Part shown: in pieces, positions 43,988 through 61,971 of the stretch
How positions within the stretch are numbered: the stretch's first letter is position 1
Layout: every line of letters begins with the position of its first letter
DNA from: Paracoccus sp. MBLB3053
Lineage (GTDB): Bacteria > Pseudomonadota > Alphaproteobacteria > Rhodobacterales > Rhodobacteraceae
Length of the DNA: 64,000 bases
Direction: 5' to 3'
NCBI RefSeq assembly: GCF_031822435.1
Contig: NZ_JAVQLW010000001.1
Coordinates: 186,001 to 250,000, forward strand
Notes under the pieces: generated by a model
The model's database searches: none
Seen by the model: the letters and a program-made list of their open reading frames with translations, nothing else
What the model was told of the DNA's origin: nothing
Translations under genes and position numbers: made by a program

Positions 43988-43989
43988 GC

Positions 43990-44685: not shown

Positions 44686-44714
44686 TGGGAAGCGCCTTGA
44701 AAGAAATCGGATGG

Positions 44715-44740
44715 GGCCGCGCGGAACGATCCGCGCGGCC
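44715..44740 (-). terminator. intercistronic hairpin after the binding-protein gene
   Basis: Perfect 11-base GC-rich arms, GGCCGCGCGGA (44715-44725) and its complement (44730-44740), enclose a four-base loop. It lies just after the stop of the sugar-binding protein gene and before araD, on the minus-strand transcript, followed by CCATCCGATTTCTTT. Such stems after binding-protein genes often raise their mRNA level by protecting the 3' end or partly ending transcription. Confidence 0.6.
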
Positions 44741-44748
44741 GCTTGCCC

Positions 44749-45687
44749 TTAGCGGGGCGACGTCCAGCCCTTGTAGCTGTCGATGTTCTCATTGGTGATC
44801 AGTTCGGGCTCAAGCAGGACGGTGTCCTGCTCGGGCGTCTCGCCCTGCAGAACCTTGTAGCCCATTTCGAGCGCCTGACCCGCCATGGTGTAGGGGTCCT
44901 GCGAGGCCGAGGCCTTGATCAGGCCATCGCCCGACTTCAGCTCGTTCTCGATGTCCGGGGCACCGTCCACGGCAGTGATGATGAACTCGTCGCGGCCAGC
45001 CTGCTTGGCAGCCAGCGCGAAGCCGATCCCGGTCGGGTCGTTGATCGCGAAGACGCCGTCGATCTTGTCGAAGCGGGTCAGCAGGTTCTGGCCGACATTC
45101 ATGCCGCCGTCGCGCGAGCCCTGGGCGTTCTGATCGTCCGACAGGATCTTGATATCGGGATGCTTGGCGAACTCGTCCTTGCAGCCCTTGACCCGGTCGA
45201 GGATCGAGGACGAGGCCGGGCCGTTGACGATCACCACGTCGCCCTTGCCGCCAAGCGCCTCGGAGATATAGGCGCAGGCCTTTTCGCCGGCCTGGACGTT
45301 GTTCGTCATGACCGTGACATCCGCGCCGGGGGCCGAGACGTCAAAGGCCGCGACGACAACGCCCGCGTCCCGCGCGCGCTTGACCGCAGGCGCGATGGCG
45401 GCGGCATCCACCGCGTTCAGCATGATGATGTCGACGCCCGCCGCGATGAAGCTGTCGATCTGGCCGACCTGCTTGTTCAGGTCGTAATCGGCCGAAACCG
45501 AAGTCACCTTGACGTCGGGATTGATCTTCTTGGCCGCGTCCTCGATGCCCTTGATCGTGGCGACGAAGAAGGGGTTGCCCAAGAGCCCGACCGAGATGCC
45601 GATGCTGTTGAGATCCTTGGCTGCGGCAGGCACCGCAGAGACAGCCGCCAGCGCCAGTGCCGAGGCCAGGGTTTTCGCAAAACGCAT
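44749..45687 (-). CDS. ABC sugar transporter, periplasmic binding protein (RbsB family)
   Basis: About 312 residues from ATG 45687 behind GGAGGAAA. A Sec signal peptide (FAKTLASALALAAVSAVPAAAK) is followed by a type I periplasmic-binding fold: IGISVGLLGNPFFVATIKGIED, AAGVDIIMLNAVDAAAIAP, VFAINDPTGIGFALAAKQ and ITAVDGAPDIENELKSGDG. The class binds pentoses, hexoses or polyols. Operon partners suggest a pentose such as L-arabinose, or L-ribulose. It is the fourth gene of the operon, with a stabilising hairpin after its stop. Confidence 0.93.
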   Translation of the reverse strand: MRFAKTLASALALAAVSAVPAAAKDLNSIGISVGLLGNPFFVATIKGIEDAAKKINPDVKVTSVSADYDLNKQVGQIDSFIAAGVDIIMLNAVDAAAIAPAVKRARDAGVVVAAFDVSAPGADVTVMTNNVQAGEKACAYISEALGGKGDVVIVNGPASSSILDRVKGCKDEFAKHPDIKILSDDQNAQGSRDGGMNVGQNLLTRFDKIDGVFAINDPTGIGFALAAKQAGRDEFIITAVDGAPDIENELKSGDGLIKASASQDPYTMAGQALEMGYKVLQGETPEQDTVLLEPELITNENIDSYKGWTSPR

Positions 45688-45730
45688 GAGGTTTCCTCCC
45701 ATTATGATGCGTTGTTGGAACAGGGTTCGC

Positions 45731-46717
45731 TCAGGTCCGCGCGCCGGTCTGGCGGTAGCGGTCGAGTGCCACGGCCGCGATGATGACGAGGCCCTTGACG
45801 ATGTATTGCCAGATATCCGAGACGCCGATCAGGATCAGGCCGTTCGACAGCACGGCGATGATCAATGCGCCGATCAGCGTGCCCCAGATCGAGCCGACAC
45901 CGCCGACAAAGCTGGTGCCCCCCAGGATGACAGCCGCGATCGCGTCGAGTTCATAGGCCTGACCAAGCTGCAGACCGTTAGCCGCATAAAGGCGCGCCGC
46001 CGCCATTGCCCCGCCAAGACCCGCGAACAGCCCCGAGACGCCATAGACGAACAGAAGGACCAGCGGCACCTTGATGCCGGTCAGCCGCGCCGCCTCGGGG
46101 TTGCCGCCGGTGGCATAGATCCAGGTGCCCAGCACGGTGCGCTTGAGAACGAACCACGAGATCAGCACGACCGCCACGGCAATGATCGCAAGCCACGGGA
46201 TGCCGAAGAGGCTGCCATTGCCGATGACGTCGAAGGGCAGGTCCGGGTTGAAGACGGTCGTGTCATTGCCCAGAAGCCGGGCTATGCCTCGAACCGCTGT
46301 CAGTGATCCCAATGTCACGATGAAAGGTGGCAATTTCAATGCCGATATGAGGATGCCGTTGGCAAGCCCGCAAGCAAGCCCGATGCCCATTCCGGCCGGA
46401 ACGCCCAGCCAGCCGATCCCCGGAATAAGCGAGACGATGACCGCGACCATCGCCGATGTCGCTAGGATCGAGCCGACCGACAGGTCGATCCCCCCGGTCA
46501 GGATGACAAAGGTCATCCCCGAGGCCAGCACGATGTTGATCGAGGCCTGCTGCATCACGTTCGAGATGTTGTTGACGCTCATGAAGCGCCCGCTCATGAC
46601 CTCGAAGATGATCGCGAGGATGATCAGCACCGGCAGCATGCCCACGATGCTCATCATCGTGCGCAGGCGCTGTTTGGCGGCGACCGAGGCGGGGGCGGTT
46701 GTCTTGGTTTCTGTCAT
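45731..46717 (-). CDS. ABC sugar transporter permease (RbsC family)
   Basis: A 328-residue inner-membrane protein with about nine to ten hydrophobic segments. Typical marks are [28 protein letters not shown] near residues 53-80, [28 protein letters not shown] (the coupling loop contacting the ATPase), and [26 protein letters not shown] near the C-terminus. Its start overlaps the ATPase stop (ATGA). The stretch at about 46,260-46,330 is part of the same continuous frame. It forms the membrane pore of the pentose transporter. Confidence 0.94.
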
Positions 46718-48249
46718 AGCGTTGCTCCTTCCGTCGCCGGAGCCGGTTCGGAGACCGAACCGGTCGAAAGTTCCATGATGGCCTCCTGGCTGATCGCCTG
46801 GCCGGGCCCCGAGGGGACCTGCCCCGCGATATGCCCTTCGCGCATGACCAGCACGCGATCGGCCACACCGATGATCTCGGCGAGTTCGCTCGAGATCATG
46901 ACGACGCCGACGCCATTGCGCGCCAGCCCGTCGATCAGCTTGTAGATTTCGGATTTGGCGCCGACATCGACGCCGCGTGTGGGCTCGTCCAGGATCACGA
47001 CCTTCGGACCCGTCTCGAGCAGGCGTGCGATCAGCACCTTCTGCTGGTTGCCGCCCGAAAGGCCGCCGACCGGCACGCGGGCGCTTGGTGTCTTGACCGC
47101 AAGCGCCTTGATCGCGTCATTGGCGCGCCGCGCGGCCGCCCGGAAATCGAGCCGGCCACCGGATTTCGCATCTTTCTCGATCACGCCGATATTGACGTTC
47201 TCCGATATCGTCATGTCGAGAAACAGGCCCAGCTTCTTGCGATCTTCGGTCAGGTAGGCAATCCCCGCGGCAAGCGCGGCGCGCGGGCTGGAACTGTCGA
47301 CCTCGGCCCCCTGCACCGCAACCGTACCGCTGCTGCGGGCATCGGCCCCGTAGATCAGGCGCGCAAGCTCGGTCCTGCCCGATCCGACAAGACCGGCGAT
47401 CCCCAGCACCTCGCCGCGATAAAGATCGAAGGAACAGCCCTTTACCAGCCCTCCATCCGACATGTCGCGCACCGATAGCAGCGGCGTTCCGCTGTGATCG
47501 GGCGAAGCGACGTGTTCCTTCTTGTAGAAGCTGTCGAGATCGCGCCCGACCATCATCGAGACAAGCTTTTGCGCCGACAGTTCGGACCGGTCGAGCGTCC
47601 CGATATAGACGCCGTCTCGCAAGACCGAACAGCGGTCGGCCAATGCATAGATTTCCTCCATGCGGTGGCTGATATAGATGATCGCGATGCCATGAGATTT
47701 CAGGCGCGCGATCACCTCGAAGAGGCGTTCGGTTTCTCGCGCGGAAAGCGACGTCGTCGGCTCATCCATGACGATCAGGCGCGCATCCGTGGTCAGGGCG
47801 CGGGCGATTTCGACCATCTGGCGCTCGCCCAGAGACAGGTCACCGACGCTGGTACGCGCATCGAAGCTGACGCCCAGCCGCTCGAGGATCGGTCGCGCGC
47901 GATCCAGCGTCTCGCGCCGGTTCAGAACGCCACGGTTCGCGATTTCTCGTCCAAGGAACATGTTCTCGGCCACCGTGAGGTTCGGGGCCAGCGACAATTC
48001 CTGATAGATGACGGCGACGCTTCCGGCGGCCTCGTGCTGGGGCTTGCCCTCGATCACGACGGTTCCGCCCGGATCGGCGATATAGGCCCCGGACAGGATC
48101 TTCATCAGCGTGGACTTGCCCGCGCCGTTCTCGCCCATCAGGGCATGCAGTTCACCCGGAAGGACGGTCAGGCTGACATCCTTGAGCGCCTTCACGGCGC
48201 CGAAGGTTTTCGAGATGTTGCGCATCTCCAGAATGGGGGGCTGGCTCAT
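46714..48249 (-). CDS. ABC sugar transporter ATP-binding protein (RbsA/AraG family)
   Basis: A 511-residue protein with two tandem nucleotide-binding domains. The first has [16 protein letters not shown] (Walker A), the signature [15 protein letters not shown] and Walker [14 protein letters not shown]. The second has a degenerate P-loop ([16 protein letters not shown]), [15 protein letters not shown] and [17 protein letters not shown]. This tandem form with a weak second P-loop is normal for carbohydrate class 2 (CUT2) importers. Its start overlaps the DeoR gene stop (ATGA), coupling regulator and transporter. Confidence 0.95.
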
Positions 48250-49019
48250 TGTTCCCTCTCGGTCTGGGCAATGATGACTTCGACCCCGGCCCGTTCAAGC
48301 ATCCGGGCATGGGAATCGGCAAGACCGTCATCTGTCACGACACGCGCGATGCGTGAAAACGGAAGCGAAACGGTCGGCGGGCGGATCGAGAACTTGCGGC
48401 TGTCGGCCAGCAGGATCACCTCGGAAACGGTCTGACTCATCTCATCGGCAAGCCGGACCAGCAGCGGGTGCTGTTCAAGGATGCCCTGTTCGCTGATGCC
48501 GAGCGCGCCGACGAAGAACTGAGCCGCATAGAACAGATGCTCATCCGAGCGCACGTCGTAAAGAATCCCCGGCTCGCGATGCAGATCGCCCCCGCCGACC
48601 GTAAGCTGACACGAACCATGCTCGCCCAGATAGGCCGCCAGCGGCAGCGAATTCGTGAAGACGCGCAGGTTACGATTGGCAATCCGGCAGCCGAAATGAA
48701 AACAGGTCGAACCGCCATGGATGATGATCGCGCTGCCGTCCCGGACGAGCTTTTCGGCCTCACGCGCGATGGCGCGCTTGGCACCGACGGCAATATCGCG
48801 GTTCTCGACGAAGGGCAGCGAAGCCGCGCGCACGCCCCGTTCGACCGCGGCCACACCGCCATACACCTTGCGTGCGCGCCCGGCCTCGTTCAGCTTTTCG
48901 ATATCACGCCGAATGGTCGCGCCAGATACGCCGATCAGATGCTGCAAGTCGCGGACTGATGCGAAAGGTCGCTCATCCAGCAACGAGACGATCTTCTCCT
49001 GGCGCTCAAAATCGCTCAA
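48246..49019 (-). CDS. DeoR family transcriptional regulator, TTG start
   Basis: About 257 residues. The helix-turn-helix is [29 protein letters not shown]. The C-terminal sugar-phosphate sensor contains [16 protein letters not shown] and [12 protein letters not shown] place the start at the TTG at 49019 (Leu-Ser-Asp-Phe-Glu-Arg-Gln). The frame remains open to ATGs at 49091 and 49109, but the added residues are Cys-rich and unlike DeoR proteins. A strong promoter at 49052-49080 would also put those ATGs outside the transcript. It is the first gene of the pentose operon and presumably its repressor, responding to a phosphorylated pentose. Confidence 0.88.
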
Positions 49020-49051
49020 CTGACGACCCAATCTGCAACAGACTTGAGCAT

Positions 49052-49080
49052 TTATTATCTTGCAGCATCCAATTTGTAAA
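49052..49080 (-). promoter_or_regulatory. sigma-70-type promoter of the pentose operon
   Basis: On the minus strand TTTACA (49080-49075) and TAATAA (49057-49052) are separated by exactly 17 bases, close to the -35/-10 consensus in an unusually AT-rich stretch. The transcript would start near 49045, about 25 bases before the TTG start of the DeoR gene. It probably drives the whole six-gene operon. Confidence 0.72.
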
Positions 49081-49087
49081 CACTTCG

Positions 49088-49101
49088 TCATCACGTGATG
49101 A
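49088..49101. promoter_or_regulatory. 14-bp palindrome, candidate operator
   Basis: TCATCACGTGATGA is a perfect palindrome lying eight bases upstream of the -35 box of the pentose-operon promoter. The position suits a binding site for the encoded DeoR regulator or another controller. Repeated GCAGCAT words occur on both sides (around 49062 and 49111). No binding is shown. Confidence 0.5.
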
Positions 49102-49278
49102 TACTGCATCGCAGCATTTCAAGGATCACTCTGGCCTACTTGCTGCATGGTTTCGAGCAATTGATCTGCCGCACATCCGGGCGGGTCCGGAAATCGGCGA
49201 TTTTCGGTAACTTATTGTTGAATTTCTCTGTATTTAACGAAAACATCAGGCATCACCAACACATCAAAGGACGGGAGA

Positions 49279-49560
49279 ATGCTGAGACTTGCACTTTTGG
49301 CAGCCGTTGTATCGGTCTGCGCATGCGATAAAACCGAATACGAATCCGCGACCGTCACCGTCGACACCGTCGAAGGTCCTGTCACCTGCCAGCTTTACCG
49401 CAGGGACATGGTGCTTTGGGATCGCGCGCTGACCCGCCCTGCAACCATGACCGACAGCGCCGCGAACGAAGCCTGCAGGACCGAAGGCTATCGCGAGAAA
49501 AGCGGTGCCCCCGTTGCGACCGGGGTGGAAGGCGAAGTTCCCGCCGAGCCAGCACTTTGA
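49279..49560 (+). CDS. small predicted lipoprotein
   Basis: A 93-residue protein with a short hydrophobic signal (LRLALLAAVVSVCAC), ending in a Cys that could be lipidated near residue 16. It starts behind GGGAGA. The remainder is polar, with pairs of Cys (VTCQLYRR and NEACRTEGYR) that could form a disulfide. I do not recognise the family. It diverges from the pentose operon across about 260 bases of AT-rich DNA holding the operon promoter, and may have its own promoter there. Confidence 0.65.
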   Translation: MLRLALLAAVVSVCACDKTEYESATVTVDTVEGPVTCQLYRRDMVLWDRALTRPATMTDSAANEACRTEGYREKSGAPVATGVEGEVPAEPAL

Positions 49561-49762
49561 TTTCGTGTAATTATCGACTGCCTGACACAGGACGAATGCT
49601 TTACGTGCGGCTCTCGACCTGAGATTTCTGGTTCGTGCCGTGGCCGCCGCGACCGTCGGCGCTTGACCGGTGTGGCCGCGTGGTGGCTTCAACCTTCGTG
49701 CGGCGCAGCAGCATCGCTCAAGCAGCAAGCCCCCTGAAACATGAAAGCCCGGATCAAACGAA

Positions 49763-49791
49763 CCGCCGTCGCGAAATGGCCGCGACGGCGG
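49763..49791 (-). terminator. terminator-like hairpin after the glycan operon
   Basis: Perfect 11-base arms, CCGCCGTCGCG (49763-49773) and its complement (49781-49791), enclose a seven-base loop. It sits 30 bases past the stop of the last gene of the leftward glycosyltransferase operon, and the minus strand continues TTCGTTTGATCC. It is probably the operon's terminator. Confidence 0.6.
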
Positions 49792-49820
49792 AGATTTCGG
49801 CACTTTTCCAGAACCCTCTC

Positions 49821-51086
49821 TCAGGCGACCTTGGCGCCTTTCACGATACGCGCCTTCGTGCCCGAAAGTTCGCAGGCTTCTCGCCATGCTTCGGTGAACC
49901 CCGCCAGATCCAGGGGCGGATCGATCATGGCGACATGTTCCTTCAGTCGCTCGACATTGCCGTGCACGGACAAAATTGCTTCAGCCAGCGCTGCGGGGTC
50001 CGCGACGCGGAATTGGATGCCCCAACCCATCGTCTTCTCAGCCATGCCGCCGATATCCGAGGCGATCATCGGCGTTCGGGCGGCCCGGGCTTCCTGGATG
50101 ACGACCGGTGAGTTTTCCCACCAGACCGACGGTATGATGATCCAACCATAGCCGCGCATGATGTTCACGCAATCCTGCGGACGATATCGACCGCGGAAGT
50201 GAACCGATTTGGGAACTTCAAGATCAGGCCACATCCGCGCGAAGCTGTCCTTGTCCACACCGTGGATCTCGATGCTGAGAGGCCGATCCAGTTCGACCTC
50301 CCGCGCTTCGATCAACGCTGCGGCGCGGATCAGCACATCAAGACCCTTTGTCGGCGTCGCCTGTCCGAAGAAAGCGAAGCGACCCGACCTTTGCGCAAGC
50401 ATGGCTTCGCTTTCCACGACTTCGTCATGCCGGTGATCCAGCCCGTTCTCGATCACGCCGATACGACCTTTCGGCACGCCCCAATCCTCGAAGCGATCCT
50501 TCAGGAACTGGCTTGGTGACAGCAGGTGGTCGAAAAGCGCCAGCATCTCGATCATGCGGGCGCGACGCAGCACGAAATCGATGGGCGGGCGCGACAGGCA
50601 TGCGGCGCAGGCAACCTCGCTCGAGGCATAGCAAAGCTCACCCGATCGTTTCACCATCTGGCCATGATTGGCACAGATCGCGGTCAGTTCGTGCAGGGTG
50701 CAGATGAACCTGGCTTCGGGCAAAAGCTTGCGCAGCCGGCGGATGGTGCCGGCCCCGATGTTCCAGAAATGGTGGAAATGGTAGACATCGGCCTTGAAGG
50801 CGGCAAGGAACTCGACAAGCCAGTCCTCATCCGAGACCTTCGCCTGCTCCATCTTGAAGGAATCCATCCCCTTGCCCTGAAGGCAGAAATCCCTCGGGCT
50901 GAAGCTGATGACCTGCTGCCCGCGGCCAAAGAATTTCTCGCTGTCCTCGGGACCGATGGTCGAGCCGACGAAGAACGCGTCTTCGCCCAGCGACAACAGG
51001 TGCTGGAACTGCCGATAGGCCGCAACCTCGCCCCCGCCGTAACGCAGGTTGGGATGCGAGTGTGAAATGATGACGATGCGGGTCAT
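49821..51086 (-). CDS. GT4 family glycosyltransferase
   Basis: A 421-residue GT-B fold enzyme. The N-terminal acceptor domain begins RIVIISHSHPNLRYGGGEVAAYRQF, and VYHFHHFWNIGAGTIRRLRKLLP continues it. The donor domain has RFAFFGQATPTKGLDVLIRAAAL and IIPSVWWENSPVVIQEARAARTPMIASDIGGM, where Glu-Asn-Ser-Pro and the following Glu form the donor-binding motif. It is the last gene of the five-gene operon. Its start overlaps the stop of the 521-residue unknown gene by four bases. It probably builds a surface or capsular glycan. Confidence 0.9.
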   Translation of the reverse strand: MTRIVIISHSHPNLRYGGGEVAAYRQFQHLLSLGEDAFFVGSTIGPEDSEKFFGRGQQVISFSPRDFCLQGKGMDSFKMEQAKVSDEDWLVEFLAAFKADVYHFHHFWNIGAGTIRRLRKLLPEARFICTLHELTAICANHGQMVKRSGELCYASSEVACAACLSRPPIDFVLRRARMIEMLALFDHLLSPSQFLKDRFEDWGVPKGRIGVIENGLDHRHDEVVESEAMLAQRSGRFAFFGQATPTKGLDVLIRAAALIEAREVELDRPLSIEIHGVDKDSFARMWPDLEVPKSVHFRGRYRPQDCVNIMRGYGWIIIPSVWWENSPVVIQEARAARTPMIASDIGGMAEKTMGWGIQFRVADPAALAEAILSVHGNVERLKEHVAMIDPPLDLAGFTEAWREACELSGTKARIVKGAKVA

Positions 51087-52648
51087 ACCGGGGTCCGAGC
51101 CTCCATCAGTTTGCGGCTTTCGGCGTCAAAGCCGTGCCAGTCGAGCCCGCCGGGAAGATTCTGGCTGAACGGGCCTGACTTGCCCGAGAAATGCAGGGTG
51201 CTGTCGACCCCGTTGCTGCTGGCGCCGCCGCTTTGCATCAACCGTTCTGCCAGGTAACGCAGGCGGGCTTCCTCGGTCAGGAATTCGCGGGGCGCGAGTT
51301 CAAGAAGGGAAAGCAGCGTCGAGGTTGGCCCGCTGATCGCGAAGGGCAGAAGATCGCGGGCAAAACGCTCGGGCGAAGGGGATTGTTCGCCCGTCAGGCT
51401 GCCGATCGGGTCAAGAACGGTGACATGGACCGGCTGACGATCCGCCGCGGCGTCAAAGACCATGTCTTCCGGCTCGAGCAGGAAAAACGTCGAGCTTCGC
51501 CCGAAAAGCAGGAAATCTCCGGCATGGCTTGCCGGCTCGAACTGCATGGCGACGCCCTGCAATTGCAACCCGTGCTCCATTTCCCGCGACGCTCCGCCGA
51601 TCGCCTCGGAAAGCTCGGCCGTCAGCGTGCTGCGCAGCAGGAACAGGTCTACGGGCCGGGCGACGGCGGCCCCGATCCGGCGCAGGATATCGCGCAGGTC
51701 GCTGTCGGCAAGGTCGTGATCGAGCACCAGAGACACCTTGCCCGCGCGGGAAAGCGGCGCATCCTGCGGAGCTTTCCAGGGCGCGAGTGAGCCCAGCATC
51801 GCACCGCGGAAACGGCGTTGCAGCGCGGGGTCGGGAAGCGCCTGCCCGGCCTCGCTGATTGCCGAAGCAAGCTCGGCGGGCTGGACCGGATCGGCGACCA
51901 CGACGACACCGGCTGCCGCGTCCTGCCCCGGGATGATCAGCAGCAGCTTGAGAGGACCGCGCGCGGGATTGGGCAGAACGAATGCGCCGCAAAAGCCATC
52001 CATCCCGCTATAGCGATAGCGCGGCGAATAGGCCTGCAGGTCTTCTCGCGGCAGGGAATTTGCAAGCAGGTCGATGCTGCAGATCTGGTTTTCGTCAATG
52101 GCCAGCGCGCGCAGCGGCTCGCGAAGACCGGAAGCGCCCAGATACCAGCCCGAGACGATCCCCTGTCCGTCCGCCGTCACCACGCCGCGATCGACGCCAA
52201 GGGCGAAATCCTCGCTTTCGCGCGGAAGCAGGGGCGCAAAGCGCAGCCGGTTCGCAGCCGCCTGTGCCACCTCGCCGATCGGCAGATTCAGTCGACCGGT
52301 CGCCAGAACGCGAAGATAGGCAAAGAACGCCTCGTCCACGCCGATTTCGATCAGGCGCATCTCGTCGGTGATCAGCCGCTCGGGCGTGATCTCGGAAAAT
52401 TCGTGCCCGGTCTTGAGATGCAAGGTCCCGTCAACCGAATTATCCACGGCGGAAAGGTTGAAAATCGCAAGGAAACCCATCGGCTCGGCTGACCGAAGAT
52501 CGCGGCGGGTATGTCGCGTGACGATCTCGGGCTTGAACCGGGTGTCATCGGCATAAAGCTCGAGGTCGAGGCTTTGTTCACTGCTCCATCCCGCAACGAC
52601 CAGCGTCCCGTTCGCATCCGCAAAGCAGAAATCGGTGTTCAGACCCAA
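51083..52648 (-). CDS. unrecognised 521-residue protein in glycan operon
   Basis: No known family is evident. The N-terminus (ADANGTLVVAGWSSEQSLDLEL) and a second segment (GVVTADGQGIVSGWYLGASG) look like two beta-rich repeats built around a G-W core, reminiscent of carbohydrate-binding or immunoglobulin-like modules. Later parts (VSLVLDHDLADSDLRDILRRIG) are alpha/beta. No signal peptide or membrane helix is visible, so it may be cytosolic or leave by another route. It is coupled by a four-base overlap to the downstream glycosyltransferase. A glycosyltransferase partner or glycan-modifying role is inference from context only. Confidence 0.75.
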   Translation of the reverse strand: MGLNTDFCFADANGTLVVAGWSSEQSLDLELYADDTRFKPEIVTRHTRRDLRSAEPMGFLAIFNLSAVDNSVDGTLHLKTGHEFSEITPERLITDEMRLIEIGVDEAFFAYLRVLATGRLNLPIGEVAQAAANRLRFAPLLPRESEDFALGVDRGVVTADGQGIVSGWYLGASGLREPLRALAIDENQICSIDLLANSLPREDLQAYSPRYRYSGMDGFCGAFVLPNPARGPLKLLLIIPGQDAAAGVVVVADPVQPAELASAISEAGQALPDPALQRRFRGAMLGSLAPWKAPQDAPLSRAGKVSLVLDHDLADSDLRDILRRIGAAVARPVDLFLLRSTLTAELSEAIGGASREMEHGLQLQGVAMQFEPASHAGDFLLFGRSSTFFLLEPEDMVFDAAADRQPVHVTVLDPIGSLTGEQSPSPERFARDLLPFAISGPTSTLLSLLELAPREFLTEEARLRYLAERLMQSGGASSNGVDSTLHFSGKSGPFSQNLPGGLDWHGFDAESRKLMEARTPV

Positions 52649-52712
52649 GAAGAAGACCTTTCGTCAGTTACCGCTGCCCGCGCAGGCGCGAGCAGCAGGC
52701 GGCAGTAGAAGT

Positions 52713-53279
52713 TCAGACCAGCGTCACACAAAGCCCGCCGATCAGCAGTCGGTGCGAGGGCTGGCGAAGATGCACGATCACGCGACGTTCGGCCGCAGCC
52801 TCGTCGAATTCGGGCAGATCGATACGGCAGAGCGAGAGAGACCCCGGACGGATATGCCATTCGACATGTCCGGCATCCTCGACGGAGCCGTCCTTTGCGA
52901 AATTGCGGACGAAGACGTCTGCAACCAGCGGGAAGTCGCTGCCGGCCTCGCATTCGACATAGCAGCGGGTCGCCGTCTCGAATTTCGAGGGCAGCGTCGC
53001 TTCGAGCGTCATCCAGTTCAGGCCGGAACTGCGCAGCTCGACCGTGTTGCCCTCGGTCGACCCGAGAACATCACAGCGGGTTCCATCCGGCAGGCATGCG
53101 CCAAAGGTGTTGGTAATCGCGTTGTAGCCGCCGCTGAGAGCCAGCTTCGGGCGGCCAACCAGCGCGGCATTGATTTCAGGCACAAGGTCCATCCGACCTT
53201 CCTGAAGGGCCACCAGGACGTCGGCAGCAGCCTGGTAAGACTTGACGGCGGCGGAATAAATGGTCGTCACTTCAATCAT
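52713..53279 (-). CDS. unrecognised 188-residue protein in glycan operon
   Basis: No family was recognised. An N-terminal helical part (IYSAAVKSYQAAADVLVALQEGRMD) precedes a mostly beta-rich body (LNWMTLEATLPSKFETATRCYVE, VADVFVRNF, HVEWHIRPGSLSL), which ends LLIGGLCVTLV. No signal peptide or membrane segment is visible. Its start overlaps the stop of the large bifunctional glycosyltransferase gene by four bases, so it is translated with it. A small carbohydrate-binding or assembly partner is possible but unproven. Confidence 0.72.
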   Translation of the reverse strand: MIEVTTIYSAAVKSYQAAADVLVALQEGRMDLVPEINAALVGRPKLALSGGYNAITNTFGACLPDGTRCDVLGSTEGNTVELRSSGLNWMTLEATLPSKFETATRCYVECEAGSDFPLVADVFVRNFAKDGSVEDAGHVEWHIRPGSLSLCRIDLPEFDEAAAERRVIVHLRQPSHRLLIGGLCVTLV

Positions 53280-55903
53280 CCTTCACTGCTTAAAAATGGC
53301 GCTTGCGCCTCCTCGCACGCGCGGCCCTCCCATCTCGCATCGAGCCACTGCTGCAACGGCTGGATCGCATCGCTCCAGCTGCGCGCATCACGCTCTGCCG
53401 CCCGCGACACGCGCTGCAAAAGCGCGCGGTCCTGATCCAGGGCCAGTATCTGCGTGATGAACAGTTCCTCGCAATTTTCCTCGGGCATGACGAAGCCGTT
53501 CGAGCCATCCTCGATCGCTTCGCGCATCGCGCCCACATCCGTGGCGATCACGACGACGCCGCAACGCTGCGCTTCCAGAACCGAAAGCGGCAGCCCCTCG
53601 TAAAGCGAGGGCAGCACGACGACATCCGTTTCGGCAAGCAGCTCGGTCAGCGCTTCGGGGCCGCGGACCGCGCCAAGCATCCTGGTATGCTTGGGGAAAC
53701 CGAAACCCCCGCCCGCCTCGTTGATGACGGATTGTCCGGCGATCGAAAGCTGGATCGAGGGCGCGCGCAGGGCCAGCCCGTTATAGATTTCGACCAGACG
53801 ATGGACGCCCTTCTGCGGATCAAGCCGCCCCATGAACAAGACGCGCAGCGGCCCGTTGGCCTTGGCACGGGATCTTCTGCCTTTCAGCACGCTCGCGATC
53901 CTGCTCGGCGCCAGGGGATAACCGGGTGCATTGACCACCGGGCAAAGCTTTTCGCGGGGAATGCCGTTCGCGCCCAACCAGTAGCGCAGCGATTCCGAAC
54001 AGGTCAGGAACAGGTCATAGGCATATTCATAGGCCAGCGCGAGCTTCGGCGGGCCGTATCCCCGACCATAGATGCTGCGTTCCAGCAGATGTTCGTGGTC
54101 GATCATGATCGTGCCCTGCCGCCGCAGCCGGTCTGCCACCTTGTGAAGGGCACCGGAATGCGCGTTGATCACGACATCCATCGACGAAAGGAGCCCGCAA
54201 AGATCCGCGCGTTCATGCGCGTTGCCCCAGCTTGGCTCGGCAGTGCCCAGGAACTCGGGCCCCGTCCAGTCGATGGTGCTAGGATCGGGCAACCAGTTCA
54301 CGGTCGAGAACGCCTCGAGCGTCCAGACATCGCGATGGATCGGGCGGTCGCTGGCGACCACGAGATGCACCCGATCCCCGGCCGCGGCGAATTCGCGTGC
54401 CATGCTGGCCGCGACCTTCTCGACCCCGCCGAAATCAAAGATGGGGAGCACGAAGGCAATGTCACGGCGTCCTTTCTGCTTCAGAAGCGGAAACACGACC
54501 CCGCCCGATGTCGCCTTGCGCGGGATCTCCGACGCCATGGCGCGCGACGCGGCCCCTCCGGGTTCGCGCCACGACCAGCGCTGACTTAAGGCGGCCCGGT
54601 AACGGCTGCGTAACAGGGTGAAAAGGAAATTCCGGAAAACCTCGTTTCCGGCATCGCTATAGGGTTTCGGTTGGGAAATGCCGTCCAGCGCCATGTCCCA
54701 GCTTGAAACCTGATGCGGGCAGGGCACGCGATCGACGTCGCGAACCCAGTTCGCGTCGCGGTCAACGATGATCCTTCGCAGCTGCTCAAGGGAAACGATG
54801 ACCCCATCCGCAGCGCGTTCGGGATTGCCCGCATCGTTTCGAATGGCGTGGCTTCCCTCGGCGGAATCAAGGAAGAAAAGTTCATAATCCGGATACCAGT
54901 TCCGCCGGGTCGAACGCCGCTCGCAGTTCCAAAGGAAATTGCGCAGCACGCGTGCCTCGGCCAGGCGCGCGGTCACCCCCTCGCGCAGAAACACGAAATA
55001 GGCCGGGACATGATGGGAATAGGGATCGCCGAGATGCGCGAAAAGCTTGCGTTCCAGTTCACCGATCGCGACGGTTTCGCCCCGTTCCGGGTCAGTACAC
55101 AGCAGGGCAGTGTCGTCGCTGCCCTCGATGATCGCGTAGCGGGGGAACTGCTCTGCCTCGAGCGCCAGAAGGGAACGGGTCGAAAACAGCCAGCTATGCT
55201 TCTTTTCAAGAAAGCGCCGCAACTCGCCGTCGACATCATGCGAGTTCGACAACATGCTGACCGGGCGCTTGCGGTAAAGCAGCATGGGCTGGGCAAAGGG
55301 CTGGCCGCGGAACCCCTTGCGCGAAGCCGAAAGCCAGAAGTCCCAATCCTCGTATCCCTGCCGCATCGCCTCGTCGAAACGGATGCCCGCTTCGAAGACG
55401 CGGCGGCGGATCAGGCTTCCTGCCTCGCAGATATTGATATGGGCGTGGAAAAGCAGCGAGGGTTCGCGCTCGGTGACATAGTTGCCCTTCTGGCCGAAAA
55501 AGTCGAAATCCGGATAGAACCAGTCCTTGTCGGGATAGGTTTCCAGAACCTGTCGCATGGCCGCGCTGGCGCCCTCTGCCAGCATGTTATCCGCATCCAG
55601 AAGCAGGATGCCGGCAATGTCGGGGTCGATCTCCAGGGCGCGATCGATGCCGCGATTGCGCGCTCCGCTAAGCCCAGCGTTCGGGATCTCGATCGCGTGC
55701 ATCGCCTCGCCCAGCACGGCCTGCCAAGCCGCGATGCTGGCGCGGGTTTCCTCATAGCGGCAACCATCGTTCACCACGACTATTCGCCGGATCACGCCAT
55801 GGGCCAGTTCGCGCTGCACGGCACCGATCGCATCGTCAAGAAGAACGGGATGACCCTTGACCGGGATGACGACGCTGATCTGATCCCGCGCGCGCTTGGT
55901 CAT
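53276..55903 (-). CDS. bifunctional GT2-GT4 glycosyltransferase
   Basis: An 875-residue two-domain enzyme. The N-terminal GT2 domain (about 1-270) has ISVVIPVKGHPVLLDDAIGAV, VVVNDGCRYEET, NAGLSGARNRGID, the metal motif DADN at 103-106 and EDWDFWLSASRKGFRG. A linker leads to a GT4 domain (about 490-860): VFPLLKQKGRRDIAFVLPIF, LRVLFMGRLDPQKGVHRLVEIY, and LPSLYEGLPLSVLEAQRCGVV with the E-x7-E donor motif. One polypeptide could add two sugars in sequence. It overlaps its neighbours by four bases on both sides. Surface polysaccharide or glycoprotein assembly is likely. Confidence 0.9.
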   Translation of the reverse strand: MTKRARDQISVVIPVKGHPVLLDDAIGAVQRELAHGVIRRIVVVNDGCRYEETRASIAAWQAVLGEAMHAIEIPNAGLSGARNRGIDRALEIDPDIAGILLLDADNMLAEGASAAMRQVLETYPDKDWFYPDFDFFGQKGNYVTEREPSLLFHAHINICEAGSLIRRRVFEAGIRFDEAMRQGYEDWDFWLSASRKGFRGQPFAQPMLLYRKRPVSMLSNSHDVDGELRRFLEKKHSWLFSTRSLLALEAEQFPRYAIIEGSDDTALLCTDPERGETVAIGELERKLFAHLGDPYSHHVPAYFVFLREGVTARLAEARVLRNFLWNCERRSTRRNWYPDYELFFLDSAEGSHAIRNDAGNPERAADGVIVSLEQLRRIIVDRDANWVRDVDRVPCPHQVSSWDMALDGISQPKPYSDAGNEVFRNFLFTLLRSRYRAALSQRWSWREPGGAASRAMASEIPRKATSGGVVFPLLKQKGRRDIAFVLPIFDFGGVEKVAASMAREFAAAGDRVHLVVASDRPIHRDVWTLEAFSTVNWLPDPSTIDWTGPEFLGTAEPSWGNAHERADLCGLLSSMDVVINAHSGALHKVADRLRRQGTIMIDHEHLLERSIYGRGYGPPKLALAYEYAYDLFLTCSESLRYWLGANGIPREKLCPVVNAPGYPLAPSRIASVLKGRRSRAKANGPLRVLFMGRLDPQKGVHRLVEIYNGLALRAPSIQLSIAGQSVINEAGGGFGFPKHTRMLGAVRGPEALTELLAETDVVVLPSLYEGLPLSVLEAQRCGVVVIATDVGAMREAIEDGSNGFVMPEENCEELFITQILALDQDRALLQRVSRAAERDARSWSDAIQPLQQWLDARWEGRACEEAQAPFLSSEG

Positions 55904-57276
55904 TGCAGGATGGCCTCCTGGCGATCGCTCCGCCCGATCCGAAAACCGCGGAAGAGCCCCCAGCTCATGTCATTGGGCCGATCGCTTGCCAGCGAGGCGG
56001 CAAGGATGATGTCGGCCTTGCCCTCGATCGGCTCGATCGGAATGCAATGCGCCTGCGCCCAGCCATGGGGCGGAACGCCGATGACCCAGGGGCCCAGCCG
56101 ACGCTGCCAGTAGCCGTCTTCGTCGACGAGCCCGCTTGGCGCCACACCGATGCTGAAGTTCAGGTTCGGCGAACGCGGGTGACCGACATTGACCAGCGCC
56201 GAGATATGGGAAAGCGCCGGCAGTTCGACGTCACGGATGATGGCGCAGACCGGGCCCTGCCGCGACGGGTGAACCATGATCGCATCTTCGTTTTCCCAGA
56301 ACTGCGTCGAGATATGATCGTTGGCCAGGTTCGGGACCGAGAAAATGCTTGGCTCGGGAAGCGCGCCGGGTGAGATGAAGTTCGATTCCCCGATGCTCAC
56401 GAGACGGCCCCGTGCAGTGACGGGCGCGCATTGCGGCAGCTTCACACCGGGAAGCGATTTCCAGGCACGCAAGGCAAGGGTTTGGTCCTTGGCGTTCATG
56501 CCGTTGACCTTCACCCCGAAATGCGGATCAGGCACGGCATTGCCCAGCCCCAGCAGCAGAGGCTGGGTGCCGCTCCAGCTGATCTCAAGCTGGCAATCGC
56601 GCTCGACGCCAAAGATCGGCTCGGGCGTGGTGAACCGCAGCCAGCCGGTTTCGAGCCCGGTATCTGCGAGATTTGCATGCAGCCCATGGCGCTGCCCCGA
56701 CGCGTCTACCAGAACGGCCTGAAGCCGGCTTGAAAATGCCGCGACGACCTCGGGCAGCCAGAGATCGACGGCGGATACGCCCACATCACTGATCGGCAGC
56801 ATCTGCGTCACCGTCTCTCCGGGCGAAATCGACAGGATCTCCCCTGCCGGGTTCCACACCAGCGATTGCAGGAAGCGCGGATTGCCGAGGCCGTAAAGGA
56901 AATCCTCGACGCCCTTGAAATTCGCTTCAAGCGTCTGGATTTCCGACCTAAGCACCGAGGCCGCCATGCGCGACGTTCCTGCATCCTTCTGGCTGGCCTG
57001 CACCTGGTCGATGAGCAGTTCGATGATCCGTGCGGCGGCACCCGCCGGTTCGGCCGGGTCAAGCTCGATCCTGGGCAGCGTCGTCAGTTCCTCGGGCAAG
57101 CTCGCGTCAAATCCGGCAGGCAGGACGACGCCGGCAGCACGACGGCCCAACAAGGATTTGAGCGCCTTGCGATCGAATTCCCGCAGATCCGTGAACAATG
57201 CAGCGCCGTCAGGAAGGAACGATGAAACCTGAGGTTTCAGATCTTCATGCACAAAGAAAACGGTGGGCATTGTCAT
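55900..57276 (-). CDS. unrecognised ~458-residue protein leading the glycan operon
   Basis: The start at 57276 is chosen because GGAGG lies five bases upstream, and the TVFFVHEDLKP segment then follows. The first ~120 residues look like an alpha/beta domain (RIELDPAEPAGAAARIIELLIDQ), a coiled-coil stretch follows (VLRSEIQTLEANFKGVEDFL), and the rest is beta-rich with Gly-Trp pairs. It may correspond to a DUF6212-type family, but I am not certain. No signal peptide is seen. As the first gene of the operon it could organise the glycosyltransferases. Confidence 0.7.
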   Translation of the reverse strand: MTMPTVFFVHEDLKPQVSSFLPDGAALFTDLREFDRKALKSLLGRRAAGVVLPAGFDASLPEELTTLPRIELDPAEPAGAAARIIELLIDQVQASQKDAGTSRMAASVLRSEIQTLEANFKGVEDFLYGLGNPRFLQSLVWNPAGEILSISPGETVTQMLPISDVGVSAVDLWLPEVVAAFSSRLQAVLVDASGQRHGLHANLADTGLETGWLRFTTPEPIFGVERDCQLEISWSGTQPLLLGLGNAVPDPHFGVKVNGMNAKDQTLALRAWKSLPGVKLPQCAPVTARGRLVSIGESNFISPGALPEPSIFSVPNLANDHISTQFWENEDAIMVHPSRQGPVCAIIRDVELPALSHISALVNVGHPRSPNLNFSIGVAPSGLVDEDGYWQRRLGPWVIGVPPHGWAQAHCIPIEPIEGKADIILAASLASDRPNDMSWGLFRGFRIGRSDRQEAILQ

Positions 57277-57908
57277 GAAAACCTCCGGCGAATTCAGCTG
57301 ACACCCGGCACGGGATGTCGGGTTGTTACCCTGAGGCAGCGAAGTGACAAAGCCGTGTCGCCTGAGCACCCGACGAAAGATCTAGCCCTTGCCGGATCGG
57401 CAAGCGTGGAAACGGCCAAGGGGAACCGTTCGATCAGTCTTTTGCCGCACGACAACGATGTTCTTCCAGTTAGCTCTCGAGTCCCGAAAACTGATACGAA
57501 GAATGCAAATTTCGGTCAATACGAACGACGCCCGCCGGTTAAGACTTTGTTCCTCAGTTTTGGGCAGACAATCAGCGATAGCAGATCACCAGTACCCGGA
57601 ACGATGAAGAAATCTGCATGTAATTCCCACGATTACCGAGATTTAAACGAAGCCTGAGGCGCGGGGCCCAAGCTTGGCCGGTTTCCGCCTCTCTGCACGA
57701 ACTGCAACCAGTTGGTGAGAAATGGGGCAGTCCCTGATACCTTGCGCAATGACTGCGGCCGGGTGCCAGAGCGCGGAACATTTCGCCCTGTCGTGATGTT
57801 TGTTACGGTGAATCTCGCATTTTCCCGGGAAAGTCAGATGCCGCCATCCGCCCCGAACCCGCTGCGGGACATGCCCCTCGCCAGGCGCCGCAAAGGCCCG
57901 AGCGCGGC
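57277..57908. other. non-coding intergenic region between divergent operons
   Basis: 632 bases separate the leftward glycan operon from the rightward pterin-like operon. It is less GC-rich than its surroundings, especially at 57,440-57,650, and must hold both promoters. Short open frames here lack ribosome-binding sites and coding character. I saw no tRNA, riboswitch or strong terminator. Confidence 0.6.
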
Positions 57909-58847
57909 ATGACCGCATCGGCGCTCTGGTGCATCGCCCCTGGCGAGGTGGAAATTCGGCCAGGCACGGAGGGAGCGGGAACGCTTGTCGAAACCGCCTT
58001 CACCGGGATCAGCCGCGGCACGGAACGGCTCGTCAGCGAAGGCCGCGTTCCCCGCGACGAATGGCACCGCATGCGCGCGCCTTTCCAGGAGGGAGATTTT
58101 CCCTTCCCTGTCAAATACGGATATTCGGCCGTCGGGGTCGCGCAGGACGGCCGCCATGCCGGAAACCCCGTTTTTGCCCTTTTCCCCCATCAGGATCGTT
58201 TTCGGCTGCCCGAGACGAACCTGATCCCGCTTCCGCCACGCGTTCCGCCGGAACGTGCGGTGCTCGCCGCGAACATGGAAACGGCGTTGAACATCATCTG
58301 GGACAGCCAGGCGGGTGCGGGTGACCGCATCGCGATCATTGGCGCGGGGCTTGTCGGGCTGCTCACCGGCTATCTGGCGGCCCGGCTTCCGGGCGCCGAG
58401 GTCACGCTGGTCGATCCCCTGCGGCAACGTGCGAGGCCCGCCCGGAACCTGGGATGCGAATTCGCGATCAGCCCGCCTGCCGGGCAGGACGTCGTCATCC
58501 ATTGCAGCGCAACGCAAGCAGGGCTCGCCTCGGCAATCGATGCGGCGGGTCCCGGCGCGGTGGTCGTCGAGGCAAGCTGGCATGGGCGCGGCCTGACGGC
58601 CCTGCCCCTGGGTGGCGCCTTTCACAGCCGCAGGCTGAGGCTTATCAGTTCGCAGGTCGGAACCCTTCCTTCCGAGCGGCTTCCGCGCTGGACGACGCGC
58701 CGCAGGCTGGAAAAGGCGCTCGAACTTCTGGCCGATCCCGTGCTCGACCTGCTGATTTCGGGGGAAACGGCGCTGATGGATCTCCCGTCCGAATATCCCC
58801 GCATCCTTGCCGATCCGGATACCCTCTGCCACCGCATCCGCTTTTGA
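57909..58847 (+). CDS. MDR family dehydrogenase without zinc-binding cysteines (BchC-like)
   Basis: A 312-residue medium-chain dehydrogenase/reductase. The Rossmann loop is IAIIGAGLVGLLTGYLAA near residues 140-157. The N-terminal segment reads FTGISRGTERLVSEG, where zinc enzymes carry a Cys ligand. No structural-zinc Cys cluster exists, so it is a zinc-independent type related to BchC and similar oxidoreductases. It opens a plus-strand four-gene set, with the PTPS-like gene starting 13 bases after its stop. Its ATG lacks a strong ribosome-binding site. The substrate is unknown. Confidence 0.8.
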   Translation: MTASALWCIAPGEVEIRPGTEGAGTLVETAFTGISRGTERLVSEGRVPRDEWHRMRAPFQEGDFPFPVKYGYSAVGVAQDGRHAGNPVFALFPHQDRFRLPETNLIPLPPRVPPERAVLAANMETALNIIWDSQAGAGDRIAIIGAGLVGLLTGYLAARLPGAEVTLVDPLRQRARPARNLGCEFAISPPAGQDVVIHCSATQAGLASAIDAAGPGAVVVEASWHGRGLTALPLGGAFHSRRLRLISSQVGTLPSERLPRWTTRRRLEKALELLADPVLDLLISGETALMDLPSEYPRILADPDTLCHRIRF

Positions 58848-58860
58848 ACCAGGAGAGACC

Positions 58861-59256
58861 ATGTTTGCCGTCGAAGTCCGCGACCATATCATGATTGCCC
58901 ACTCCCTGCGCTCGCCCGTCTTCGGGCCAGCCCAAGGCGTCCATGGGGCAACCTTCATCGTCGATGCCGCCTTCTATGCCACCGATCTTGATGCGGAAGG
59001 ACTGGTTGTCGATATCGGACTGGCGACCGAGGCGCTGTCTGAAGTGCTGGCACCGCTTCGTTACAAGAACCTTGACGAAGCCGCGGAATTCGCCGGACAG
59101 TTCACCACGACCGAGTTCCTCTGCCGCCATATTTTCGATCAGCTGGCAGCCCGCATTCGCGGCGGAGAGATGGGCGATGCGACCCGCGTCACGCGGCTGC
59201 GCATCACGCTGCACGAAAGCCATGTCGCACGCGCCTGGTTCGAACGAGAGGTCTGA
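58861..59256 (+). CDS. PTPS/QueD-fold protein lacking canonical catalytic residues
   Basis: About 131 residues from ATG 58861 behind GGAGAGACC. The fold (6-pyruvoyl-tetrahydropterin synthase / 6-carboxytetrahydropterin synthase) is supported by the N-terminal RDHIMIAHSL, GVHGATFIVDAAFYATDLDAEGLVVDIG, the TTTEFLCRHIFDQL helix and the C-terminal LRITLHESHVARAWFE with its Glu. Compared by eye with E. coli QueD, the zinc HGH motif reads HGA, the catalytic Cys is Ala, and the Asp-His pair reads Arg-Tyr. Normal pterin synthase chemistry is unlikely; a ligand-binding or altered enzymatic role on a pterin-like substrate fits better. Confidence 0.78.
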   Translation: MFAVEVRDHIMIAHSLRSPVFGPAQGVHGATFIVDAAFYATDLDAEGLVVDIGLATEALSEVLAPLRYKNLDEAAEFAGQFTTTEFLCRHIFDQLAARIRGGEMGDATRVTRLRITLHESHVARAWFEREV

Positions 59257-59258
59257 TC

Positions 59259-60026
59259 GTGTCTTTTTCCGCAGAATGGCTCGCGATGAGGGAAGCGGCG
59301 GATCAGTCTGCGCGCGACCCATATCTGCTTTCTCTTGCTGCGGATGCCGCGGGCCCCGACCCCTTGGTGCTCGATCTCGGCTCGGGAACCGGAGCAATGA
59401 TGCGAGCGCTTCGGCCCCATCTGCCGGCCTCTGCGTCATGGCGTCTTGTCGATCATGACCCGGCCTTGCTTTCTTACGCCTCGAAAGCGACCCAGAGGAA
59501 TATCGAATGCCTGATGCAGGATCTGGGGAATGTCGATGCGCTTCCGTTGGAGGGGGCGACGCTCGTGACGGCTTCTGCGCTGCTTGACCTCATGCCTGCG
59601 CGATGGATTTCCGCCCTGTCGCGGCGGCTGCTCGACGCAAGGCTGCCGTTCTATGCCGCCCTGTCCTATGACGGCTGCATGGAATGGGATCCAATGCTGC
59701 CTGACGACGTTATTGTAACGGCGGCCTACAATCGCCATCAGAAACGCGACAAGGGGCTGGGGCCTGCGCTTGGCCCGGATGCCGGGCGACAGGCCGTCGA
59801 GACGTTCCGGCTGGCCGGGTTCCAGGTCCTTCGAGCGGATAGCAACTGGGATCTCGGAATCGAACATGCCGGACTTCAGCGAGAATTGCTTCAAGGAATT
59901 GCGACAGTCGCCGCCGAGGCGGGCCTGCGCGACGCGCAGGAATGGGCGAGCCTCAGGATGGCGCGGATCGAGACAACCCGCTGGGAGATCGGCCATGTCG
60001 ATCTGCTGGCCCTCCCCCCCGGCTAG
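59259..60026 (+). CDS. class I SAM-dependent methyltransferase, GTG start
   Basis: A 255-residue protein starting with GTG at 59259, two bases after the PTPS-like stop. The SAM-binding motif VLDLGSGTGAMMRAL lies near residues 36-50, followed by WRLVDHDPALL (acidic residue for the SAM ribose) and LVTASALLDLMPARWI. The later region, with PDDVIVTAAYNRHQKRDKGLG, is family-specific. It probably methylates an intermediate or product of the surrounding pathway. It is tightly packed between the PTPS-like and RibD-like genes. Confidence 0.85.
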   Translation: MSFSAEWLAMREAADQSARDPYLLSLAADAAGPDPLVLDLGSGTGAMMRALRPHLPASASWRLVDHDPALLSYASKATQRNIECLMQDLGNVDALPLEGATLVTASALLDLMPARWISALSRRLLDARLPFYAALSYDGCMEWDPMLPDDVIVTAAYNRHQKRDKGLGPALGPDAGRQAVETFRLAGFQVLRADSNWDLGIEHAGLQRELLQGIATVAAEAGLRDAQEWASLRMARIETTRWEIGHVDLLALPPG

Positions 60027-60029
60027 ACC

Positions 60030-60860
60030 ATGAAAGACAACGCGGTCATGCGCTCGGTCGAAGTTACCCCACGCATCTGGAACCACATTCTGGCCATCAG
60101 GAACGGGGCACGCCCGCCGGGCGATTTCGGCTGGACGAAAGCCGAGCGCGCGGCACTGGCCCTTTACGGCCCCGTCGCGCGCCGAGATGGCGATGCGCGG
60201 GTCGTGGCGCAGATCGGGCAATCCCTCGATGGCCGGATCGCCACGGTTTCCGGAGATTCGGCCAGCGTTTCGGGCCCGGACGGGCTGGCGCATCTTCATC
60301 GGCTCAGGGCACTGGTCGATGGCATCGTGATCGGCGTCAAGACTGCGCTTCTGGACAAGCCAAGGCTTACCGTTCGTCTTTGCACGGGTCGGAACCCGGC
60401 ACGCATCATCATCGACCCCAAGGGCCGCCTGCCCGATGACGCCACGGTCTTTCGCTCGGACGGAGCACGCCGGATCGTGGTTCAGGGGATCGACAGGCCC
60501 AGGCCGCATGGCGTCGAGATCCTGCGGCTGGGCGCACGCGCTGGCTGGATCAACCCGGCCGAGATCCTGCCGCGACTTCAGGAAACCGGCCTTTCGTCGA
60601 TCCTCGTCGAAGGCGGCGGGACCACGATTGCCGGTTTCCTCGAGGCCGGGCAGCTGGACCGCATGCAGGTTTCCGTCGCCCCCCTGATCATAGGAGCGGG
60701 GCCGCAATCCCTGACGATGAGCTCGGCCGTCACGAGACTTTCGGACGCGCTTCGCCCGCCCACCTCGTTCTATGCCATCGGCAGCGACATCGTCTTCGAT
60801 TGCGTCATTCCCCGGCTGACCGAGGGCGTGGAGCAGACCTGCGTCGCGTCGCCGATATGA
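60030..60860 (+). CDS. RibD C-terminal-type reductase
   Basis: A 276-residue protein with the riboflavin-pathway reductase domain (RibD_C) and no deaminase domain. The domain begins RVVAQIGQSLDGRIAT near residue 56, then DGIVIGVKTALLDKPRLTVR, NPARIIIDPKGRLP, and SILVEGGGTTIAGFLEAGQLDRM. In riboflavin synthesis the domain reduces a ribosylamino-pyrimidine sugar with NADPH. The ~50-residue N-terminal extension is unusual. It is the last intact gene of the set; its stop is 76 bases before the IS remnant, so a longer operon may have been cut here. Confidence 0.85.
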   Translation: MKDNAVMRSVEVTPRIWNHILAIRNGARPPGDFGWTKAERAALALYGPVARRDGDARVVAQIGQSLDGRIATVSGDSASVSGPDGLAHLHRLRALVDGIVIGVKTALLDKPRLTVRLCTGRNPARIIIDPKGRLPDDATVFRSDGARRIVVQGIDRPRPHGVEILRLGARAGWINPAEILPRLQETGLSSILVEGGGTTIAGFLEAGQLDRMQVSVAPLIIGAGPQSLTMSSAVTRLSDALRPPTSFYAIGSDIVFDCVIPRLTEGVEQTCVASPI

Positions 60861-61297: not shown

Positions 61298-61334
61298 ACG
61301 CCACTGGTTCGAGAGAACATGCGAACGGAGGTCA

Positions 61335-61903: not shown

Positions 61904-61925
61904 GTGTATTGATGTATTTTGATTT

Positions 61926-61971
<46 letters not shown>

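Follow-up and report, generated by a model that had tools for sequence, protein, structure and literature searches.

A widespread gene set built around a zinc-less dehydrogenase and a SCO6650-type PTPS-like protein in Paracoccus and other bacteria: a candidate GTP-derived biosynthetic pathway

The 64,000-nucleotide stretch of the Paracoccus sp. MBLB3053 genome considered here (as a whole, the window) contains, at positions 57909–60860 of the plus strand, four adjacent genes for a zinc-less medium-chain dehydrogenase/reductase (MDR), a T-fold protein resembling 6-pyruvoyltetrahydropterin synthase (PTPS), a class I S-adenosylmethionine (SAM) methyltransferase (MT) and a RibD_C reductase. These genes belong to a widespread, real biosynthetic unit common to Alphaproteobacteria, Gammaproteobacteria and Actinomycetota, in which the MDR and the SCO6650-type PTPS-like protein form the constant pair, accompanied by the RibD_C reductase, a family 4 glycosyltransferase (GT4), the MT and a particular subfamily of CDP-alcohol phosphatidyltransferase (the cluster CDP-alcohol enzyme). 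GTP cyclohydrolase II (RibA) is often part of the set, and a creatininase-family hydrolase, an inositol monophosphatase (IMPase)-type phosphatase, a flippase-like protein and a sulfatase-like protein (SULF) join it in some hosts. That these genes work together in a single dedicated biosynthetic pathway is nearly certain, and a product derived from GTP as a pyrimidine or pterin is likely; the best overall explanation, a GTP-derived, decorated small molecule made by one dedicated pathway, is modestly favored. The original prediction, made from the DNA letters, had proposed a compact operon for a possibly undescribed pterin- or flavin-precursor pathway. A real conserved unit stands at the pathway level, whereas the identity of the product is still a prediction, and the four-gene operon, conserved though it is, holds only half of the set within the window: the interval 57909–60860 is too narrow, and 38210–41558 is part of the same gene set.

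Distribution and conservation of the gene set

Regarding distribution, 289 Alphaproteobacteria genomes from 224 genera were surveyed with thresholds of E <= 1e-20 for the PTPS-like protein and E <= 1e-40 for the cluster MDR. Both proteins were found in the identical 36 genomes, the window genome included (hypergeometric 9e-47, phylogeny ignored); in one of these the two genes are on different contigs, and in another they are encoded on opposite strands with about 1.6 kb between them. The cluster RibD (at least 199 bits, next match 167) occurs in 31 genomes, namely 30 of the 36 and one of the 253 others, and the cluster CDP-alcohol enzyme (at least 177 bits, next match 58) in 21, namely 20 of the 36 and one other; the outlying genome is in both cases G127, which is 74% complete. 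Both genes can be present yet unlinked from the PTPS-like gene (RibD in, e.g., G028 and G035; CDP-alcohol enzyme in, e.g., G015, G184 and G175). A search at the phylum level found the PTPS-like protein in 27 of 398 genomes.

The gene neighborhoods were compared in 80 named loci, which are the best 80 of 355 confirmed in a scan of species genomes and therefore lean to close relatives; some are truncated at contig ends. Gene families at the loci were built from genes predicted with a codon-score caller. With the window added, tblastn detected the PTPS-like protein in 81/81, the MT in 80/81, the MDR in 79/81 and RibD in 71/81, and profiles detected GT4 in 58 of the 80 loci, FkbM in 42, RibA and SULF in 38 each, IMPase in 37, the CDP-alcohol enzyme in 35, and the flippase-like protein and cytochrome b561 in 30 each. 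The typical Rhodobacterales order is GT4-IMP-FkbM-RibA-MDR-PTPS-MT-RibD, with CDP-alcohol-SULF-flippase close by in many loci, and the Rhizobiales order is MDR-PTPS-GT4-MT followed by RibD, so that GT4 sits between PTPS and MT.

A second sample of 55 fetched loci comprised all 35 non-own matches of the class search and 20 of the 23 new non-own matches of the phylum search; one of them (L143) duplicates a named locus of Paracoccus bogoriensis (L007). Linked to the PTPS-like gene were the MDR in 54, GT4 in 52, MT and RibD in 44 each, RibA and the CDP-alcohol enzyme in 20 each, an MdoH-like protein in 17, cytochrome b561 in 13, FkbM in 12, YceI and creatininase in 11 each, flippase and SULF in 9 each, IMPase in 1 and EEP in none. 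MDR, PTPS, GT4 and RibD are jointly present in 42/55, and with L143 dropped the counts become 53/54 for MDR, 52/54 for GT4 and 43/54 for both MT and RibD. Twenty control stretches of 20 kb from 20 of these genomes, chosen on the contigs that carry the cluster but at a distance from it, gave no match over threshold for 15 families and no creatininase; three of them held sub-threshold matches (IMPase 90, GT4 104 and 76, MDR 27 bits). Nine loci outside the class, from two families, contain the MDR, GT4 and CDP-alcohol enzyme (9 each), RibD and flippase (8 each), and MT and RibA (4 each). The PTPS-like protein is also encoded in 20 plasmid records, of which eight were inspected. Most of the set is present on plasmids of Streptomyces fungicidicus (RibD was not seen in that stretch), Microbacterium, Methylosinus, Thiodictyon and Palleronia, and an Arthrobacter plasmid record that lacks annotation holds MDR, PTPS and GT4 by profile. 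The distances of the five core proteins correlate at 0.78–0.86 over 82 loci; these values include species kinship and are given little weight. The neighborhood search suggested by the original prediction thus brought back its GTP cyclohydrolase II, glycosyltransferase, CDP-alcohol enzyme and creatininase as recurring partners, the creatininase solely outside the 80 close named loci, and neither scattered single homologs nor restored active sites were encountered, except for lone PTPS-like genes on two Streptomyces plasmids.

The gene order bears on one alternative, in which the product is a soluble glycosylated pterin, such as a cyanopterin-like cofactor or pigment. The PTPS-like protein and MDR would finish the pterin and GT4 and MT would modify it, with the genes for the CDP-alcohol enzyme, sulfatase and flippase serving a neighboring envelope function. 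Bacterial pterin glycosides exist, the tightest block is MDR-PTPS-GT4-MT, and the cluster CDP-alcohol enzyme is absent from 16 of the 36 PTPS genomes. However, that same subfamily is tied to PTPS genomes (20/36 versus 1/253) even when it is unlinked, and RibA, RibD_C and creatininase indicate a riboflavin-type opening of GTP rather than GTP cyclohydrolase I, for which the loci were not searched. A soluble glycosylated pterin is thus considered unlikely.

Proteins of the four-gene run

The MDR (57909..58847), the PTPS-like protein (58861..59256), the MT (59259..60026) and the RibD_C reductase (60030..60860) are encoded by plus-strand open reading frames (ORFs) separated by 13, 2 and 3 bases, exactly as first described. 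The ATG start of the PTPS-like gene at 58861 was picked by homology (the program-made ORF list has TTG at 58807), and the GTG start of the MT gene at 59259 is backed by homologs opening with M(S/G)F. In Pfam scans, the MDR matched ADH_zinc_N at 28.4 bits, below the cut-off of 31.8, and its zinc-less character was borne out in an alignment with one zinc alcohol dehydrogenase (ADH): Cys is replaced by Ser in TGISRGTE (motif SRGTE, where the zinc-Cys region is expected), GHE by YGYS, and the four-Cys lobe is missing. The MT, matched by Methyltransf_25 at 29 bits, has a Rossmann-like methyltransferase fold and motif I, which place it in class I, and forms its own subfamily with the region HQxxDKGxGxALGP. 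The reductase matches RibD_C (PF01872) at 129.3 bits against a cut-off of 24.1 over residues 58–234 of 276. Pfam found no cytidine-deaminase-like N-terminal domain in this protein, in agreement with the initial description, and it does not qualify as a bifunctional RibD. The window proteins retain nearly all of the invariant columns of their families: 56/58 for MDR, 34/34 for PTPS, 29/29 for MT, 35/36 for RibD, 33/33 for GT4, 24/26 for the CDP-alcohol enzyme and 37/40 for the sulfatase-like protein.

The PTPS-like protein matches PF01242 at 78 bits (gathering score 22.4). Structure prediction, which had been proposed as a check, returned a T-fold (pLDDT 90.9) whose top structural match, by VIA-align, is 3d7j, with PTPS/QueD-type entries at ranks 1–17. 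The structure 3d7j is that of SCO6650; it shares high identity with the window protein across the full length, and FGPAQ and HGAT are common to both, placing the window protein among SCO6650-type members. In a motif count, HGAT is present in 143/143 SCO6650-type members and HGH in 0/143, and Glu119 is invariant in 21/21 aligned sequences. Enzymes of COG0720 with known reactions carry CxxxHGH, CxxxxxHGH or ExxHGH, and the function of PTPS-V is described as unclear, in the excerpted text of PMC5041015. The window protein lacks the HGH zinc motif preceded by Cys or Glu that such enzymes require, and in comparison with the QueD of its own genome, the catalytic Cys, the third zinc His and the Asp-His pair are all replaced. 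Judged from its sequence, it is therefore not a PTPS or QueD of the kind whose reactions are known. The earlier term "degenerate PTPS" needs correction: the protein belongs to a conserved, re-tooled family with SCO6650 as a solved member and is not a decaying PTPS. To our knowledge, no function has been assigned to SCO6650, whose structure was released in 2008; the report of that year reportedly found neither zinc nor PTPS activity, with pterin-binding residues retained.

The hypothesis that these are ordinary riboflavin, folate or queuosine paralogs, adjacent by chance, draws on the Pfam names, on the database annotation (6-carboxytetrahydropterin synthase, RibD family) and on the presence of RibA beside many copies. 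It is hardly credible against the evidence of the same genome, a 4.6-Mb assembly with a separate ordinary QueD (with CxxxHGH, adjoining QueC) and a separate RibD with a reductase half and, by eye, a deaminase half, so that the early distinction of the set from standard riboflavin and queuosine genes was correct. A third RibD_C protein is also present, and the cluster RibD scores cleanly apart from other RibD_C matches. Furthermore, HGH is missing from the PTPS-like family, and the four proteins do not reach the NCBIfam cut-offs of the BchC, QueD, PTPS and RibD models (for QueD, 33.5 bits versus 89.25). At loci of this kind, the annotations 6-carboxytetrahydropterin synthase and RibD family protein are probably wrong.

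Second half of the set, partners and flanking DNA

The other half was located on the plus strand with profiles built from the 80 named loci: the cluster CDP-alcohol phosphatidyltransferase (38210..38959, 257 bits), a membrane sulfatase/LtaS-like protein (38956..40500, 586 bits; Pfam Sulfatase 24.3, cut-off 25) and the GT4 glycosyltransferase (40497..41558, 494 bits), successive genes overlapping by four bases. The first matches PF01066 at 50.3 bits, and DGxxARx8Gx3Dx3D, the CDP-alcohol phosphatidyltransferase motif, is intact in the window protein and in 57/58 members. The region 41622..57369, which is not part of the pathway, splits the halves. It holds sugar-catabolism and ABC-type genes, among them SDR, FGGY kinase, class II aldolase, sugar-binding and DeoR genes, as well as an exopolysaccharide-type glycosyltransferase/DUF6212 block on the minus strand. 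This separation suggests an insertion or rearrangement in the window, because relatives (e.g., L006 and L010) keep both parts close.

The membrane partners bear on another alternative, a lipid or surface-glycan pathway of MDR, GT4, MT, CDP-alcohol enzyme and sulfatase in which the PTPS and RibD_C folds have been co-opted to act on a substrate that does not come from GTP. Several membrane partners recur, and the solved chains nearest the GT4 are Tll1590 and then, among others, MshA- and PimB-type inositol-phosphate or phosphatidylinositol glycosyltransferases, a generic GT4 similarity. Of the class genomes, 8/16 without the cluster CDP-alcohol enzyme (L109, L110, L111, L113, L115, L120, L128 and L134) and 0/19 with it have a linked MdoH-like membrane glucosyltransferase, yet linkage of both enzymes is seen in some Rhodobacterales loci and in 3/9 loci outside the class. 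This alternative is quite unlikely, since one unit unites two 2-amino-4-oxo pyrimidine folds with RibA and creatininase, and since Glu119 is invariant in the PTPS-like family.

RibA and RibD_C in the set also favor a modified flavin or lumazine branch, in which riboflavin intermediates would be diverted to a decorated flavin for export; in the excerpted text of PMC9478397, Sinorhizobium is reported to separate internal from secreted flavin synthesis. Lumazine and riboflavin synthases are not among the annotated recurrent neighbor families (smaller unannotated families were not checked), and the PTPS-like protein has no obvious role in such a branch, which is very unlikely. Met-form RibA halts at the formylated product. 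Among 60 RibA sequences, 42 have Tyr, one has Met and 17 were unread by the pattern, most of the latter being KMRAY by eye and a few cut or different. A Met-for-Tyr switch tracking creatininase was rejected, as in 6 loci creatininase stands beside RibA of the Tyr type, and a single sequence shows the Met form. Two creatininase partners tested belong to PF02633. Elsewhere in the window genome, relatives exist for the IMPase-type (49% identity) and RibA-type (58%) partners; a search run without a positive control gave no match for FkbM or the flippase-like protein.

Several observations concern the surroundings. YceI-type genes (L114, L117, L119, L125, L126, L139, L140, L142, L155, L157 and L158) in several cases adjoin the CDP-alcohol or RibD gene; YceI proteins bind polyprenyl lipids. 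The minus-strand block at 49821–57369 encodes a GT4, a 521-aa protein without a Pfam match, a 188-aa ORF, an 875-aa GT2+GT4 fusion and a DUF6212 protein. Beside the CDP-alcohol gene, at 36783–38073 on the minus strand, are an ECF sigma factor gene and, overlapping it, a 257-aa ORF that has no Pfam match (anti-sigma by position only); the sigma factor was rejected as a conserved regulator, since the loci gave three weak matches, of which two come from the lone-PTPS plasmids. A possible island edge lies at 60930–63382, with transposase-like remnants that by eye are interrupted by stop codons, the C-terminal part of a phage integrase and, at about 61930–61975, a sequence resembling by eye the 3′ half of tRNA-Met; ARAGORN found no tRNA in 57000–64000.

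Predicted pathway and comparison with known systems

In the proposed pathway to a GTP-derived product, RibA would open GTP to give 2,5-diamino-6-ribosylamino-pyrimidinone phosphate, formate perhaps being removed by a creatininase-family enzyme in some hosts, and the RibD_C enzyme would reduce the ribosyl to a ribityl group, as in archaeal and fungal riboflavin synthesis. The PTPS-like protein may grip the 2-amino-4-oxo pyrimidine edge via Glu119 and, together with the MDR, may convert the pyrimidine into a pterin-like or otherwise modified heterocycle, which the MT and GT4 would decorate. Where present, the CDP-alcohol enzyme would link the product to a lipid through a polyol hydroxyl or phosphate, and the membrane proteins would transport or finish it. 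Lipid linkage is possible rather than expected, and the full prediction, a heterocycle-headed lipid from GTP whose pyrimidine or pterin is glycosylated, methylated and anchored in the membrane, is doubtful. We know of no such bacterial class of heterocycle-headed, GTP-derived lipids or redox carriers; the cytochrome b561 genes near some copies would fit an electron-carrying role of the product.

Several points weigh against this explanation. The metabolite and the enzyme activities are predictions; the co-occurrence statistics ignore phylogeny, and the spread is patchy, as the listed same-family genomes in the phylum search have no match, except one of the same genus. The profiles applied to the 55 fetched loci were made from the 80 named loci with hand-set thresholds. 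Because 6 and 16 of the 36 PTPS genomes lack the cluster RibD and CDP-alcohol enzyme, respectively, neither is obligatory. On two Streptomyces plasmids (L088 and L093) the PTPS-like gene stands apart from the set and adjoins cupin, MEKHLA, MBL-fold and BTAD-regulator genes; this fold may serve a different purpose there. RibA may be linked simply because it is a riboflavin enzyme: in the window genome a stand-alone RibA (L183) lies about 0.8 Mb away from the cluster and may be the sole active one, the RibBA homolog (L184:775-1908) being by eye without the Cys motif of GTP cyclohydrolase II (its domain still scores 101 bits). Creatininase was found by profile search in 0/80 named loci, and there is no tidy deformylation pattern, because it also occurs beside Tyr-type RibA and Met-type RibA is 1/60.

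The gene set places the SCO6650 family in a pathway, with a fixed enzyme set across phyla and a constant dehydrogenase partner, and supplies defined deletion targets and a substrate class. Should the product turn out to be attached to a lipid, it would represent a new type of membrane molecule. Among the papers listed in the literature searched, outside which most subscription journals lie, none was seen to describe the set, and unpublished status is not implied; one metabolic-model paper mentions SCO6655 once.

As for known systems, the creatininase partners recall BrbF of Sinorhizobium meliloti, a creatininase-family formamidase of riboflavin synthesis that, in the excerpts from PMC9478397, was initially annotated as a creatininase and has MarR and CobW neighbors, a locus that differs from the cluster loci. 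A BrbF-like reaction by the partners is plausible, because BrbF once bore that annotation and the tested partners are PF02633 creatininases. Their nearest NCBIfam model is MftE; an identity with mycofactocin MftE was rejected, both proteins (2/2) being under its cut-off, and other mycofactocin genes were not searched for. The MDR weakly matches the BchC model TIGR01202 through an N-terminal motif (26.7 bits), far below the 291-bit cut-off. The reductase resembles the stand-alone RibD_C of the archaeal 2,5-diamino-6-ribosylaminopyrimidinone 5′-phosphate reductase (2azn), its closest solved chain (E 2.3e-28), but has about 57 residues ahead of the RibD_C match and scores 99.7 of 186 bits with the NCBIfam archaeal model. 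The PTPS-like protein shares with QueD/PTPS the T-fold and the retained positions that we take to be two zinc His and the substrate Glu, whereas HGA in place of HGH, Ala at the catalytic Cys, the missing Asp-His pair and 18% identity to the genome's own QueD set it apart. Its closest counterpart is SCO6650 (3d7j) of Streptomyces coelicolor, a PTPS homolog of the same family.

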